NCBI RefSeq assembly: GCF_015500095.1
Contig: NZ_CP062983.1
Span: 1,550,001 to 1,614,000, forward strand
Source: Phototrophicus methaneseepsis
GTDB lineage: Bacteria; Chloroflexota; Anaerolineae; Aggregatilineales; Phototrophicaceae
Direction of reading: 5' to 3'
Length of the DNA stretch: 64,000 bases
Both the position numbers and the translations under genes were made by a program. This document shows positions 58,988-64,000 of this stretch, piece after piece (position 1 is the stretch's first letter; each line of letters starts with the position of its first letter). Under the pieces are notes generated by a model, which was not told where the DNA came from, did no database searches, and worked only from the letters and a program-made list of their open reading frames with translations.

Positions 58988-60112
58988 CTAGTAAGTAACG
59001 GTCGTGCCAACGTAAATGACGCCGTTACGGACTTCAACAGCATAGGTATCAACGGGCTTGTTCACGACGCCATCAATGGCTTGCCCGGTGCGCAGGTCGA
59101 ATTTGCCATAGTGCCATGGGCACGTCACACTGCATTCGACCGGGTCCACAACGCCTTCGCTGAGCGGCCCTCGTGCGTGTGAGCAGCGATTGTTGAGTGC
59201 ATACAGCGTCCCTTCCACATTGAAGACGCCGACCATCTTGCCTTCCAGGAAGATGGTCTTGCTCTCGCCTGGGCCGAGTTCATCCAATGGGCAGACTTCC
59301 ATCCAGACATCTTCGGATACCCCAGGCGTAACTTCCTGGGCGATGGCTGGACCGCCGAGCGCGTCCAGGGCCTCGTCAAGGCGCATGTTGATGCACGTAA
59401 AGAGGGGCGTGTCTTGCAGAGTGTACATGCTCACCGTGGATTCCCTCAGTTCTTGCACCAGGTCCAGGAAGTCCGACGGTTCATCTGTTTCAAAAGCGAG
59501 GATGAACTCATAGTCATCCAGGCCAAAGCTGTAAGTTGTGTTCAGCCGGACTGCCGGGTATTTGCGACCAATTGCGATGTGCTCGTCCATCATGCCCTGG
59601 CGCGCATACTGCGAAAGCTGGTACCACTCGCGCGTTTTGATGAAAGGATACACGAATAGATACTTCGCTTCTGTGGGGTCGATGATGAGGCGCTCTTCGT
59701 CGTCTTCGTTGCCATCTGGCGTGCGGATTTCGTAAAGGGAGCGCTTCGTCTGGGAAAAGTAAGAGTAGGCCATGGTCAGGTAAGCGCCCATGCGCGTGCG
59801 CATCACCGCGCTGGCTAATTCCCGGAACGGCACCGGGCTTTTTGCGATCTGCCATAATAGGATTTCTGCATCGGCACGTGTGCCCATTAAGCTGTATGGG
59901 CGCAGCAGCATGCGCCGGTTAAAGGACCGAACAACGTCCAATAACTCTTGCTTATGCTCAGCTTGTTCTGGCTCAGGTAAGCGCCGCCAACTCGGGTCAA
60001 CTTTGTAAAAAGCAAAGCGTACGTACTGCCGTTTGGATAAACGTTCGGCACGTTCCTGCATTTTTGCTTGCGTTTCCGGCGATGGGGGACTTTGTGGAAT
60101 TCTCGGACGCAT
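58988..60112 (-). CDS. chdC: Coproheme decarboxylase fused to a Rieske [2Fe-2S] domain
   Basis: 374 residues. Residues about 25-250 are a ChdC/HemQ fold: Y155 in VYPFIKTREWYQL (catalytic tyrosine region), H178 in MMDEHIAIGRKYPAVR (proximal haem ligand by position) and SFGLDDYEFILAFE. Residues about 265-374 are a Rieske ferredoxin domain with C310-x-H312 and C331-x2-H334 (CSHARGP, CPWHYGKFDLRTG). The two are in one unbroken frame. ChdC converts iron-coproporphyrin III to haem b with peroxide; the Rieske part may supply or take electrons. First gene of the leftward haem cluster, divergent from the cys operon. Confidence 0.92.
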   Translation of the reverse strand: MRPRIPQSPPSPETQAKMQERAERLSKRQYVRFAFYKVDPSWRRLPEPEQAEHKQELLDVVRSFNRRMLLRPYSLMGTRADAEILLWQIAKSPVPFRELASAVMRTRMGAYLTMAYSYFSQTKRSLYEIRTPDGNEDDEERLIIDPTEAKYLFVYPFIKTREWYQLSQYARQGMMDEHIAIGRKYPAVRLNTTYSFGLDDYEFILAFETDEPSDFLDLVQELRESTVSMYTLQDTPLFTCINMRLDEALDALGGPAIAQEVTPGVSEDVWMEVCPLDELGPGESKTIFLEGKMVGVFNVEGTLYALNNRCSHARGPLSEGVVDPVECSVTCPWHYGKFDLRTGQAIDGVVNKPVDTYAVEVRNGVIYVGTTVTY

Positions 60113-60332: not shown

Positions 60333-60359
60333 TTGACACGCTTTCCCATCAGTGATAAT
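60333..60359 (+). promoter_or_regulatory. Promoter of the cys/sirohaem operon
   Basis: Perfect TTGACA (60333-60338); GATAAT at 60354-60359 gives a 15-bp spacer, or TAATCT at 60356 a 17-bp spacer. The region 60113-60332 upstream shows nothing else recognisable and must hold the chdC promoter. Confidence 0.6.
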
Positions 60360-60407
60360 CTCCTTCCATATATAAGGTAAATTTATCTATCGCATAAGGG
60401 ACAGGTA

Positions 60408-60503
60408 ATGTCTGTTGAGCGGCAATTCACAGCAAATATAAAATCGAATACCACGATGATGTGTTGTATTTGCTGTAGCGACGCTTGCCACGGGCACGTT
60501 TGA
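60408..60503 (+). CDS. Cysteine-rich leader peptide (31 residues)
   Basis: ATG at 60408 with AAGGGA seven bases upstream, stop TGA at 60501. The first 16 residues are ordinary (M-S-V-E-R-Q-F...), followed by M-M-C-C-I-C-C-S-D-A-C-H-G-H-V: five cysteines within nine codons (60462-60488). A perfect intrinsic terminator follows 33 bases after the stop, and cysH comes after that. This is the layout of a transcription-attenuation leader: ribosome stalling on cysteine codons when cysteine is short would alter folding and let transcription reach cysH. Translation and regulation are inferred; the sequence layout is seen directly. Confidence 0.72.
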   Translation: MSVERQFTANIKSNTTMMCCICCSDACHGHV

Positions 60504-60536
60504 GTTTGTGTATCTTCCCTGATTGGTAGACATAAC

Positions 60537-60568
60537 AAGCTCCGGCCCGCGCCGGAGCTTTTGTTTTT
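60537..60568 (+). terminator. Attenuator-type intrinsic terminator before cysH
   Basis: Perfect 10-bp stem AAGCTCCGGC / GCCGGAGCTT, four-base loop CCGC, then TTGTTTTT. It lies inside the cysH leader, about 100 bp before the cysH start. A weaker GC-poor hairpin with a T-rich tail follows at 60595-60619. CGGGC in the leader coding region (60491-60495) can pair with GCCCG (60545-60549) in this stem, a possible antiterminator. Confidence 0.9.
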
Positions 60569-60667
60569 CCGGGCTTCTGTTTTTTGAGGGAGCGCCTATT
60601 TTCTAAGGCTTTTGTTTTTCTGGTTAAGTTTTGTTTTATCATATAGCAGACCACATGTGAGGCTATC

Positions 60668-61357
60668 GTGATACCCGAATACACCGATGTCGAAATAAGT
60701 ACGTTGCAGCAGCAGCTCGATGCCGAACATCCGCAGGAAATTCTACGTTGGGCCGTCGAAACCTACGGTGATAAGCTCGTCGTCGTAACCAGCTTCCAGA
60801 TCACGGGTATCGTGACGCTGCACATGCTCAAGCAGATCACAAATAACATCAACGTCCTCACATTAGATACAGGCCTGCTCTTTCCTGAGACAAACCAACT
60901 CATTGAAACGGTCGAAGCGCGTCTTGGTATCAACGTTCAGCGCATCCGCCCACAGCAATCACTGACCGAACAGGCTCGCCAGTATGGTGGCCCCTTGTGG
61001 GAATCCAACCCGGATCAATGCTGCCATCTGCGTAAGCGTATCCCCCTGGATAGCGCACTTGCCGGCTATGATGCCTGGATAACGGGCTTACGGCGCGATC
61101 AATCCGCCACCCGTGCCAACGTCCCCGTTGTGGATTGGGACCCTCGGCATAAGCTGTATAAGCTTTGCCCCTTCGCCACCTGGACTGAAGATATGGTATG
61201 GACTTACGTCAATGCCTATGACCTGCCGTATAACGCCCTGCATGATCGTGGTTACGATAGCATTGGCTGCTATACCTGCACGCTGGCCGCGGAAGGCCGC
61301 GAAGGCCGCTGGGCCAACTTCAATAAGACGGAATGCGGTATCCACTACGCTCGCTAG
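60668..61357 (+). CDS. cysH: Adenylyl-sulfate reductase (CysH family, Fe-S type)
   Basis: 229 residues from GTG 60668 (GAGG upstream). Substrate loop VVTSFQITG, then C118-C119 (DQCCHLRKR) and C201/C204 (GCYTCT), the four cysteines of the [4Fe-4S] APS-reductase class, WITGLRRDQSATRA, and the catalytic C223 in TECGIH. It reduces activated sulfate to sulfite with thioredoxin electrons. First structural gene behind the leader; its product would need sirohaem-dependent sulfite reductase, in line with the sirohaem genes downstream. Confidence 0.94.
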   Translation: MIPEYTDVEISTLQQQLDAEHPQEILRWAVETYGDKLVVVTSFQITGIVTLHMLKQITNNINVLTLDTGLLFPETNQLIETVEARLGINVQRIRPQQSLTEQARQYGGPLWESNPDQCCHLRKRIPLDSALAGYDAWITGLRRDQSATRANVPVVDWDPRHKLYKLCPFATWTEDMVWTYVNAYDLPYNALHDRGYDSIGCYTCTLAAEGREGRWANFNKTECGIHYAR

Positions 61358-61495: not shown

Positions 61496-62059
61496 ATGTC
61501 GCAGTACGAAGGGTATACATTGTGGTTAACGGGCTTATCCGGTGCGGGTAAGACCACTATCGCTAAAGCGCTAGAAGCGCGCCTGAAAGAAGCCGGTTAT
61601 CTCATCGAGCGGCTTGATGGCGATGTGGTGCGTCAATCGCTGACGCGGGACCTGGGTTTTAGCAAAGAAGACCGCGACAAAAATATTGAGCGCGTCACCT
61701 TTGTGGCGAAACTGCTCTCGCGTAATGGTGTCGGTGTGATTTCGTCCTTTATTTCACCGTATCAGGCGACCCGTGACGAAGTCCGCCAGGAGACGACCAA
61801 TTTTATCGAGGTCTTCGTCCATGCGCCGTTAGAAGTCTGTGCGGAGCGCGATGTAAAGGGCCTCTACGCTAAGGCCTTCGCTGGCGAAATCCCTAACTTT
61901 ACGGGCGTCTCGGACCCTTACGAAGCGCCGGAAAATCCAGAACTGGTCGTCAATACGCACCTTGAAACCGTGGACGAGAGTGTGGATAAGATCATCACCT
62001 ATCTGGTGCAACGCGGCTTTATCTCATCGCTGCCTGCACGGACAGAAGCGCTGGCATAG
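61496..62059 (+). CDS. cysC: Adenylyl-sulfate kinase
   Basis: 187 residues. Walker A GLSGAGKTT at residues 14-22, then LDGDVVRQSLTRDLGFSKEDRDKNIERV and ISPYQATRDEVR, family hallmarks. It phosphorylates APS to PAPS. AGGAG eight bases before the ATG. The neighbour cysH carries the Fe-S cysteines typical of direct APS reduction, so PAPS may be an alternative reductase substrate or be used for sulfonation. Confidence 0.95.
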   Translation: MSQYEGYTLWLTGLSGAGKTTIAKALEARLKEAGYLIERLDGDVVRQSLTRDLGFSKEDRDKNIERVTFVAKLLSRNGVGVISSFISPYQATRDEVRQETTNFIEVFVHAPLEVCAERDVKGLYAKAFAGEIPNFTGVSDPYEAPENPELVVNTHLETVDESVDKIITYLVQRGFISSLPARTEALA

Positions 62060-62104: not shown

Positions 62105-62785
62105 GTGAATTCGCTCCCCCTGTCTCAGGCGTCACCCTATCTGGTGGCCCTCAATATGGTGCATAAGGCTGTCGTCATCGTCGGCGGTGGTGTCGTTGCC
62201 AGCCGCAAAATAGGCGCGCTGCTGGCGAGCGGTGCACGCGTGACGGTCATCAGCCCGATGGTAACGGAAGCGATTCGCACACAGGCGGCACAGTCGAACT
62301 TGCAATGGATCGCGGCCACCTATGAGCCGGGGTTGCTTGCAGCCTATCAGCCTGTGCTGGTGATCGCTGCGACGGACGACAGCGCTATCAATCAACAGGT
62401 GCGTGACGAAGCGCGCCAACTCGGCGCATGGGTGAATGATGTCTCAGCGCCGGATGAAGCCGACTTCGCCAATATGGCCGTCATCGACCGGGCACCGCTC
62501 CAGATTGGCATTAGCAGCGGCGGCGCATCGCCCGCGCTGCTGCGCTGGCTCAAGCAGCAGTTAACACATATTGTCGACGTGCCTCTGGGCCAGCTTGCAA
62601 GCTGGATGCAGGCATTACGTGGCGTCACCGCCAATTCCGTCACGGAACAGGCCGAGCGCCAACGCCTCTATGATGAGATTCTCGCTTCGGATGTATTGTC
62701 GCTGCTGCGTGACGATCAGCCAGAAGCGGCCCGGCAGCGTTTTGAGCAGATCGTGCAGGCGCATTTGCCACGGGAGCGCTCATGA
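62105..62785 (+). CDS. Precorrin-2 dehydrogenase / sirohydrochlorin ferrochelatase-like
   Basis: 226 residues from GTG 62105 (AAGGAAC upstream). Rossmann motif VVIVGGGVVASRKIGALLASGARVTVISP, VIAATDDSAINQQVRDEA and the family segment FANMAVIDRAPLQIGISSGGASPALLRWLKQQL. This is the CysG N-terminal/Met8 type, oxidising precorrin-2 to sirohydrochlorin on the way to sirohaem. It has no methyltransferase domain. ATGA overlap with the CbiX gene. Confidence 0.93.
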   Translation: MNSLPLSQASPYLVALNMVHKAVVIVGGGVVASRKIGALLASGARVTVISPMVTEAIRTQAAQSNLQWIAATYEPGLLAAYQPVLVIAATDDSAINQQVRDEARQLGAWVNDVSAPDEADFANMAVIDRAPLQIGISSGGASPALLRWLKQQLTHIVDVPLGQLASWMQALRGVTANSVTEQAERQRLYDEILASDVLSLLRDDQPEAARQRFEQIVQAHLPRERS

Positions 62786-64000
62786 GTACGGCTTTGGTCC
62801 TGGCAGGGCATGGCTCACATATCAGCCCGGAGACGGCTGGCATTGTCTGGGGCTATGTGGATGCGCTGCGCCGTATGGGCGTCGCGGAAGAAGTCACGGC
62901 TGCTTTCTGGAAGGAACAACCAGAGTTTGCCCAGGTATTGGGCACTCTCATGGCGGAGACTATCGTCGTGGTGCCGCTGTTCACAGCGACAGGCTTTTAT
63001 ACCAACAAAGTCATTCCAGCCGCGATGGGGCTGGATGGCCCTGTGACGCAGCGTGGCAATCGTACCATTCACTATACGCCTGCTCTGGGGACGCATCCTA
63101 TGCTGGATGATATTGTGACGCGGCGTGTCAAAGACGCCATGCAGGCATATGACCTGCTGCCCCAGCAGACCGCCGTCGCTATCATCGGGCATGGGACCCG
63201 CCGCAGCGAAACCACGCGCTTGACCACACAAAATCAAGCTGAGACGGTCCGGCGAGCAGGGTTAGCGGCTCAAGTCGTGGATGCTTACCTGGATGATGAC
63301 CCCGATATTCCTTCCATTTACCAGCGTACAGAAGCCCAGAATCTGGTTGTCGTGCCTTATTTCCTGGCATCTGGCTCTCATGTAACATATGATGTGCCAC
63401 GTGCTCTGGGCTTGCCAGATGACGAGATGACAGCCCAGGTCCAGGGACGCCATGTGTATTACACGGCACCCATTGGCACAGCGGATGTCATCCTGCAAGT
63501 GATTCTCGAACTTGCACGTGCCACAGGCGTCTCTTTTGAGATCAATGAAGCGCCTTTATGGTATGGTATGCCCCGCGTTGGGGCAGCAGCATTGGTCCAG
63601 GCGGTGCTGCTGAAGAACGCGCAGCAGCGAGGTGCAGTCCAATTCGGGCAATTACGCCTGACGCCCAATGTGGTGCATCCGGTTGGGAGCAGTGATGCGT
63701 ATGTTTTCATCACGCCCAACCAATTGCGAAGCCATATCCGGGAAAATCCTTTCCGGCCCCTGGCAACATCTGACGATTTGCCGCGCGATTGGGTCGTACC
63801 TATTGACGATGTGCAGCAGATCCCGGCTATTGTGGAAACCGTCTATCCTGGTGCACTGGCGGAGTGGGCCAATCATTATGCTCAAGCGGCAACGATCACA
63901 CCGCTGACAGAGGTTGTCAGCCGTCATGAGGGCATGTTTCATCATCTGACGCAGGCTACGGAATCCATGGTGAATCAACTCGTAGCAACCATGTGTGGGC
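62782..64000 (+). CDS. Two-domain CbiX/SirB-type chelatase with C-terminal extension (3' end outside window)
   Basis: At least 406 codons. Two CbiX-like domains: VLAGHGSHIS (about 7-16) with VPLFTATGFYTNKVIP, and IIGHGTRRSETT (about 133-144) with VPYFLASGSHVTYDVP, each with the metal-binding histidine. Residues from about 253 onward are a third region (NEAPLWYGMPRVGAAALVQ) ending in TMCG at the window edge, resembling the iron-sulfur extension of the Deinococcus DR2241-type chelatases. It most likely inserts Fe into sirohydrochlorin. Starts within the previous stop (ATGA). Confidence 0.87.
   Translation, partial: MSTALVLAGHGSHISPETAGIVWGYVDALRRMGVAEEVTAAFWKEQPEFAQVLGTLMAETIVVVPLFTATGFYTNKVIPAAMGLDGPVTQRGNRTIHYTPALGTHPMLDDIVTRRVKDAMQAYDLLPQQTAVAIIGHGTRRSETTRLTTQNQAETVRRAGLAAQVVDAYLDDDPDIPSIYQRTEAQNLVVVPYFLASGSHVTYDVPRALGLPDDEMTAQVQGRHVYYTAPIGTADVILQVILELARATGVSFEINEAPLWYGMPRVGAAALVQAVLLKNAQQRGAVQFGQLRLTPNVVHPVGSSDAYVFITPNQLRSHIRENPFRPLATSDDLPRDWVVPIDDVQQIPAIVETVYPGALAEWANHYAQAATITPLTEVVSRHEGMFHHLTQATESMVNQLVATMCG

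Follow-up and report, generated by a model that had tools for sequence, protein, structure and literature searches.

The window analysed here is a stretch of 64,000 nucleotides from the genome of Phototrophicus methaneseepsis ZRK33, a cultured deep-sea bacterium of the Chloroflexota (PMC8941918), and its positions serve as coordinates throughout. Towards its right-hand end lies an operon, cysH-cysC-sirohaem-reductase, that encodes the reductive steps of sulfate assimilation and provides the sirohaem cofactor, and in front of cysH a short open reading frame (ORF) dense in cysteine codons is followed by an intrinsic terminator (Table 1). A preliminary description of this DNA, made from the letters alone, had taken this arrangement for a cysteine-codon attenuator. 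The short gene with its ribosome-binding site, the five cysteine codons in nine, the stop codon and the perfect 10-bp terminator with T-tail that it listed were all recovered at or near the place described, and the cysH, cysC and sirohaem genes that it read after the terminator gave family matches over the cut-offs.

The leader ORF contains an ATGATG at 60456 for which no ribosome-binding site is obvious; we take ATG 60408 as the leader start, giving 31 codons, because the ribosome-binding site at 60396-60405 serves that ATG. Its cysteine codons fall at 60462-60467, 60471-60476 and 60486-60488. The terminator stem occupies 60537-60560, with a CCGC loop and the tail TTGTTTTT, and 164 nt lie between the leader stop and the cysH start. 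We also considered whether this terminator might end an upstream gene and rejected the idea, since the intergenic region is divergent, its left-hand neighbour (58988-60112) lying on the minus strand and pointing away from it.

Table 1. Coordinates of the cysteine leader and of the operon behind it, in window positions.
Feature	Positions	Strand	Details
Candidate sigma-70-type promoter	60333-60359	+	TTGACA 60333-60338, 15-nt spacer, GATAAT 60354-60359; from sequence, weak
Ribosome-binding site of leader ORF	60396-60405	+	AAGGGACAGG; read from sequence
Leader peptide ORF	60408-60503	+	MSVERQFTANIKSNTTMMCCICCSDACHGHV; 31 codons, ATG 60408, stop TGA 60501-60503; from sequence
Possible 1:2-type hairpin	60429-60476	+	ACAGCAAATA 60429-60438 with TATTTGCTGT 60467-60476; fold of 60366-60575, role inferred
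Regulatory codons	60462-60488	+	TGT TGT ATT TGC TGT AGC GAC GCT TGC, five Cys in nine; sequence
Predicted antiterminator, 15 bp	60491-60549	+	60491-60495 with 60545-60549, 60497-60498 with 60543-60544, 60502-60509 with 60535-60542
Intrinsic terminator	60537-60568	+	AAGCTCCGGC / CCGC / GCCGGAGCTT and T-tail; sequence and terminator scan
cysH, phosphoadenylyl-sulfate reductase	60668-61357	+	NF002537, 254.8 bits (cut-off 154); GTG start 60668
cysC, adenylyl-sulfate kinase	61496-62059	+	NF002059, 269.5 bits (cut-off 244)
Sirohaem synthase N-terminal-type precorrin-2 dehydrogenase	62105-62785	+	TIGR01470, 143.9 bits (cut-off 62.3)
CbiX-type chelatase gene	62782-64000	+	continues beyond the window to 64128 (locus L064)

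For searches we defined a signature as an ORF of at most 70 amino acids with at least four Cys in nine codons, followed by a terminator-like hairpin starting between -12 and +110 nt from the stop. It occurs once on the two strands of the window, at the cysH leader. Twenty cysH loci covering 285,175 bases gave 16 matches, all of them upstream of the operon and on its strand, and a further 159,864 bases around cysH loci gave four, again all on the operon's strand; in a genome scan of 80 named loci, mostly from the same organisms, the signature stood upstream of cysH in 48 cases in sense orientation against one in reverse. The DNA pattern Cys-Cys-x-Cys-Cys alone is not rare, being present at 92 places in the ZRK33 genome, and a search for it was rejected as a leader catalogue because that many matches make it undiscriminating; 30 ZRK33 loci picked for the pattern contained no signature, and none was found in the loci of the other two PF01507 matches of ZRK33, even at three Cys.

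Within the order, 85 of 154 genomes had a cysH match at E <= 1e-40, and of the 90 matches 89 were counted (the ninetieth, in G101, is outside these counts and also has a leader-terminator unit). A Cys-dense ORF was present no more than 600 nt upstream of cysH in 52 of the 89 copies, against one of 89 on the reverse strand. With this asymmetry, the single signature in the window and its absence from the 30 pattern loci, we rejected a chance run of cysteine codons. Leader and terminator were both found near cysH in 50 copies and neither was found in 35, while two copies had the leader only and two the terminator only; on the reverse strand the pair was seen in 0/89. The two elements therefore stand together in 50 of the 54 copies with either (Fisher p = 6e-20, not corrected for kinship), which supports the attenuator reading of the leader. 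The units before cysH have between four and seven Cys in nine codons.

The same co-occurrence bears on a different explanation, namely that the leader acts on cysH translation or through Rho, with the hairpin secondary, as has been proposed for mycobacterial cysteine leaders. In the passages cited, those leaders are without conserved terminator hairpins and Rho is proposed (PMC1262725), and translational attenuation is reported in M. smegmatis (PMC13236596, PMC9031893). Such a mechanism would fit two copies in the order that have a Cys-dense ORF but no terminator, as well as similar Cys-rich ORFs, again with no terminator, at three loci of a single genus from another part of the class. It is harder to reconcile with the perfect, T-tailed terminator of the window, with the joint presence of leader and terminator in nearly all copies that have either, and with the distance between the leader stop and the cysH start, and we regard it as unlikely.

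For all 37 copies without a nearby leader, 2-18 kb around cysH were read, and in eight of them the unit was found before the operon's first gene instead. This gene encodes a sulfate ABC transporter substrate-binding protein in G031, G037, G059 and G060 (the G059 protein, the only one of the four tested, matches TIGR00971 at 227 bits, cut-off 155.5), an assimilatory sulfite reductase haemoprotein in G024, G046 and G065 (NF010029, 722-759 bits, cut-off 457) and, in G023, a NirA-like reductase that scores below cut-off. We conclude that the element follows the operon rather than cysH, as the attenuator reading would have it. Genes for sulfate-binding proteins were also considered as a further target in the family, but with the signature at 1 of 18 such loci no general rule holds.

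Outside the order, 40 cysH upstream stretches, some of them short, were chosen from 96 matching genomes; four carried the signature and none did when reversed. In genus g180, which belongs to another family, Cys- and Ser-rich short ORFs (one of them ending SSSSSCLCTTSSCCCSCCCS) lie about 450 nt upstream of cysH at L309, L311 and L312 with no recognised terminator, and are possibly a terminator-free type of cysteine leader. Two loci titled Bacteroidetes and Pleurocapsa minor (L212 and L233) have cysH genes that group by identity with these Chloroflexota, and are probably mislabelled assemblies.

The leader of the nearest relative, G001 of the same genus, encodes a different Cys peptide, MYHHYRSCQTQCCMITCLLCTKHSTVRHG, and is again followed by a terminator. 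Across genera it is the density of Cys codons that recurs, the peptides being otherwise different. This speaks against a metabolite-binding riboswitch or protein-bound leader in which the Cys-rich ORF is incidental, as does the result that neither the window nor six related loci matched any Rfam family, whether known leader or riboswitch, at gathering score; the leader does fold better than its shuffles (z = -2.58), as such an RNA might, and we hold this explanation to be very improbable.

The antiterminator of the preliminary description was a five-base-pair contact between CGGGC in the last codons of the leader and GCCCG in the terminator arm. Both motifs are present (60491-60495 and 60545-60549); however, the predicted pairing is not confined to them, extending to 15 bp when the RNA made up to the terminator loop is folded below a ribosome placed on the first Cys codon, and every one of the ten bases in the 5' terminator arm takes part. 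These folds assume a footprint of 13 nt, counted from the A-site codon's first base. Upstream pairing of the 5' arm in the window unit then came to 0.99 for a ribosome on the first Cys codon, 0.39 for one at the stop and 0.59 for shuffled spacers, and none of 1000 spacer shuffles reached 0.99; masking the ribosome footprint, which had been proposed as a check, thus came out in favour of the attenuator. With footprints of 10 and 16 nt the first-Cys state stayed at 0.99 and the stop state gave 0.20 and 0.46, respectively, 0 and 2 of 100 shuffles being as high. Two-state folding of 90 units gave arm pairing of 0.79 for the first-Cys state, 0.30 for the stop state and 0.57 with shuffled spacers, and when averaged by genus first-Cys pairing exceeded both the stop state and the shuffles in 16 of 16 genera (Wilcoxon p = 3e-5 each). 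The whole leader (60366-60575) folded without a ribosome also prefers an antiterminator, with pairing similar to the 15-bp helix. The 3' arm of the possible 1:2-type hairpin (60467-60476) overlies Cys codons.

Further evidence for pairing of this kind was seen in genus g17, where TTATCCG just after the Cys run of the second unit pairs with a CGGATAA that spans the end of the terminator arm and its loop. Among 30 relatives, 207 of 210 cells of this helix hold standard pairs, against at most 120 when it is slid by 1-3 columns, and 26 of 5000 shuffles were as good, although the helix was taken from the consensus fold of the same alignment, a choice that favours it. Two of its pairs show changes on both sides, each as a single case. 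In G114 an A-T pair is replaced by G-C, and since the right-hand member of this pair is a loop base, the terminator does not constrain it; in G123 a G-C pair is replaced by A-T, with G-T at this pair in three other g17 sequences. The codons that follow the second Cys run (YP) seem to be kept for RNA pairing and not for the peptide.

Copper-responsive upstream ORFs can be Cys-rich. It might be supposed, then, that the active agent is the Cys-rich peptide, which could for instance bind a metal or redox signal and stall the ribosome, and a copper-responsive upstream ORF is reported from another bacterium (PMC9426467). The targets seen here are cysteine-supply genes, the peptides share little beyond Cys density, and the g17 codons after the run look kept for the RNA; we consider an active peptide a very slim prospect.

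Our interpretation, made with considerable confidence from sequence features, is that the window element works by ribosome-mediated transcription attenuation, with charged tRNA-Cys as the quantity sensed. What we observe are its parts, where they lie, how they are conserved before sulfur-assimilation genes and how they could pair: a predicted leader ORF, complete with start, stop and ribosome-binding site, lies upstream of the operon, five codons in nine for the end product, cysteine, precede sulfate-assimilation genes, the terminator separates leader and first gene, and an antiterminator is predicted that would exclude the terminator, be freed by stalling and be masked by a ribosome at the stop. 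In the mechanism that we infer, plentiful cysteine would let the ribosome reach the stop at 60501 and cover the RNA to about 60513, so that the antiterminator could not form; the terminator at 60537-60560 would form in its stead and transcription would end before cysH. When cysteine is scarce the ribosome would stall at the Cys codons at 60462-60476 and leave 60491-60509 free to pair with 60535-60549. This pairing would engage the entire 5' terminator arm during its synthesis, and polymerase would then read into the cysH-cysC-sirohaem-reductase genes. The scheme supposes that the leader is translated, that the ribosome stalls on it with a footprint close to the one modelled, that read-through changes and that cysteine is the signal.

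Several observations weigh against this interpretation. GATAAT at 60354-60359 together with TTGACA was not reported by the promoter scan, which allows spacers of 16-18 nt, and although the TTGACA hexamer of the preliminary description is in place, the nearest -10 sequence is only 15 nt from it, outside the range of that scan; for this reason we rate the promoter as weak. A loose terminator rule finds two sites (this hairpin, on both strands) where 1.4 are expected in 1.1 kb, so that only its perfect 10-bp stem sets the hairpin apart. No Cys leader was detectable for 29 of the 89 cysH copies in the 2-18 kb read, and these include the second cysH copies of G001, G004 and G106. Comparison of related cysH leaders, another of the proposed checks, bore out that Cys codons and terminator are conserved together, but in G018 and G084 a terminator-like hairpin stands with no Cys leader before it, and these two are the only cases of the type that the preliminary description had named as refuting the attenuator. 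In the median of the 90 folded units 7.5% of shuffles pair as well, and 62 of the 90 come from one genus, so the unit counts are not independent; for 21 cysK leaders the antiterminator score equals that of shuffled spacers (0.58 vs 0.58). Finally, with the complete downstream RNA the window unit adopts the terminator at equilibrium in both ribosome states. The switch must therefore be kinetic, since below a stalled ribosome the equilibrium fold is the terminator; attenuators usually are kinetic, and we infer kinetic switching in the window unit.

The element is not confined to the cysH operon. The best PF00291 gene of ZRK33 encodes a cysteine synthase (TIGR01139, 470 bits, cut-off 351), and this cysK is preceded by a different Cys leader, MLFCACCLCMCCEDSPPNGCGAMFGY, and a terminator. 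Among 30 cysK loci in the order, drawn from 40 matches, the signature was present in nine at four Cys and in 21 at three or more Cys in nine, and when the loci were reversed it was present in 0/30 at three Cys. Besides cysK, only one of the ten ZRK33 PF00291 loci (L287) matches at three Cys, and there the match lies inside or after the gene match and not upstream. In front of the ZRK33 cysS gene the combination of Cys leader and terminator is missing; the short ORF that lies 374-233 nt upstream of the cysS match (L329) has three Cys in nine and no recognised terminator. No ATP sulfurylase of the PF01747 type was matched in ZRK33.

Many relatives carry more than one unit. At least two units with separate terminators precede 33 of the 89 cysH copies (28 in genus g17, three in g12 and one each in g22 and g52), genera g23 and g24 have two units before a different first gene, and two separate Cys runs, with terminators recognised or not, were counted in 42 copies. 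The ZRK33 cysH operon has one unit. Two Cys leaders and two terminators stand in series before cysH at L011 and L091, and L212 has two Cys units; the three signature matches of G124 include two overlapping frames on one shared terminator.

On balance we favour a broader picture, held with less assurance than the reading of the window element, in which cysteine supply in the Phototrophicales, and in some further Chloroflexota of their class, is controlled by a set of cysteine attenuators that covers sulfate uptake, sulfate and sulfite reduction, sirohaem and cysteine synthase. In many genomes two independent units in series would form a two-step gate with less leakage and a sharper response, no protein regulator would be needed, and ribosome-mediated amino-acid attenuation would have arisen or persisted in a deep phylum. 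Such a set would be a candidate for the way in which these bacteria regulate sulfate assimilation, and serial attenuators for the same signal would be a natural test of the effect of doubling an attenuator.

As ZRK33 is cultured and public RNA-seq exists, under PRJNA1012367 (PMC11005417) and under PRJNA685946 and PRJNA758590 (PMC8941918), the prediction is directly testable. Its media contain 0.7 g/L cysteine (PMC11005417), and the operon is therefore predicted to be largely shut in the published laboratory cultures. Proteomics in that study, as far as cited here, found CysN, CysD and TST changed and other assimilatory proteins undetected, which was partly blamed on the single sampling time, and in dialysis bags in the sea the Sir, CysN, CysD and TST transcripts rose (PMC11005417). 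This expression pattern fits a cysteine-shut operon, among other possible causes.

Beyond the window end (window position = L064 position + 59999) the CbiX gene is followed by cobA (uroporphyrinogen-III methyltransferase), a TrpD-like gene, a NIR_SIR sulfite/nitrite reductase gene and then a gene with no family match at 1e-5. The TrpD-like gene, of the phosphoribosyltransferase family, lies within the sulfate-assimilation operon at L064 4883-5929 (65 kb on the window scale). To the left of the leader, the minus-strand gene at 58988-60112 encodes a HemQ-like protein with an apparent C-terminal fusion to a ferredoxin-type domain (matches below curated cut-offs), and it adjoins ferrochelatase and glutamyl-tRNA reductase genes.

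Comparison with known systems begins with the trp, his and ilv attenuators, which, as is generally known, share the end-product codons and the alternative antiterminator and terminator; the present element differs in having cysteine as its amino acid and a Chloroflexota host. The uORFC-8-2 motif upstream of cysS in the Rhodobacterales is likewise a short ORF with conserved Cys codons and an intrinsic terminator, for which stalling at low charged tRNA-Cys is proposed to cause read-through, and it controls cysteinyl-tRNA synthetase through two tandem Cys codons (PMC8632094). The ZRK33-type element belongs to another phylum, has sulfate assimilation and cysK as its putative targets, carries 4-7 Cys in nine codons in its cysH units and often comes as two units in series; it stands before cysH, whereas the cysS gene of ZRK33 is without the signature. 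Polycysteine leaderless short ORFs of mycobacteria were reportedly described by Canestrari in 2020. These and the cys leaders predicted in Actinobacteria resemble our element in being Cys-codon ORFs before cys operons, with a response to cysteine that is predicted for ours, but the mycobacterial type is described as leaderless and without conserved terminators, whereas the ZRK33 type has a ribosome-binding site and an intrinsic terminator (PMC13236596, PMC9031893, PMC1262725). The terminator at 60537-60568 stands where the mycobacterial type has no hairpin between leader and operon, and the leader ATG, 70 nt downstream of TTGACA and with its own ribosome-binding site, speaks against a leaderless start from the candidate promoter. 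For Actinobacteria, known or predicted cysteine leaders are on record (PMC1262725, PMC13236596, PMC9031893, PMC9094748), and in 2010 leader-peptide attenuation was described as occurring only in Proteobacteria and Actinobacteria, with a histidine case in bacilli added (PMC2965389). No description of cysteine leader attenuators in Chloroflexota was found in the literature searched, most subscription papers lying outside its scope. In Salmonella mgtCBR the two leader ORFs sense different signals. This leader, for which tandem attenuators are described, is similar in having two short ORFs in one leader that control transcription (PMC3641672); in the Chloroflexota relatives, by contrast, there are Cys runs in both ORFs and a separate terminator for each. 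We did not find this serial double arrangement described, and by its sequence features the element would be of a known kind in a new lineage and with new target genes. A conserved cysteine version in the Chloroflexota would extend leader-peptide attenuation to another phylum.
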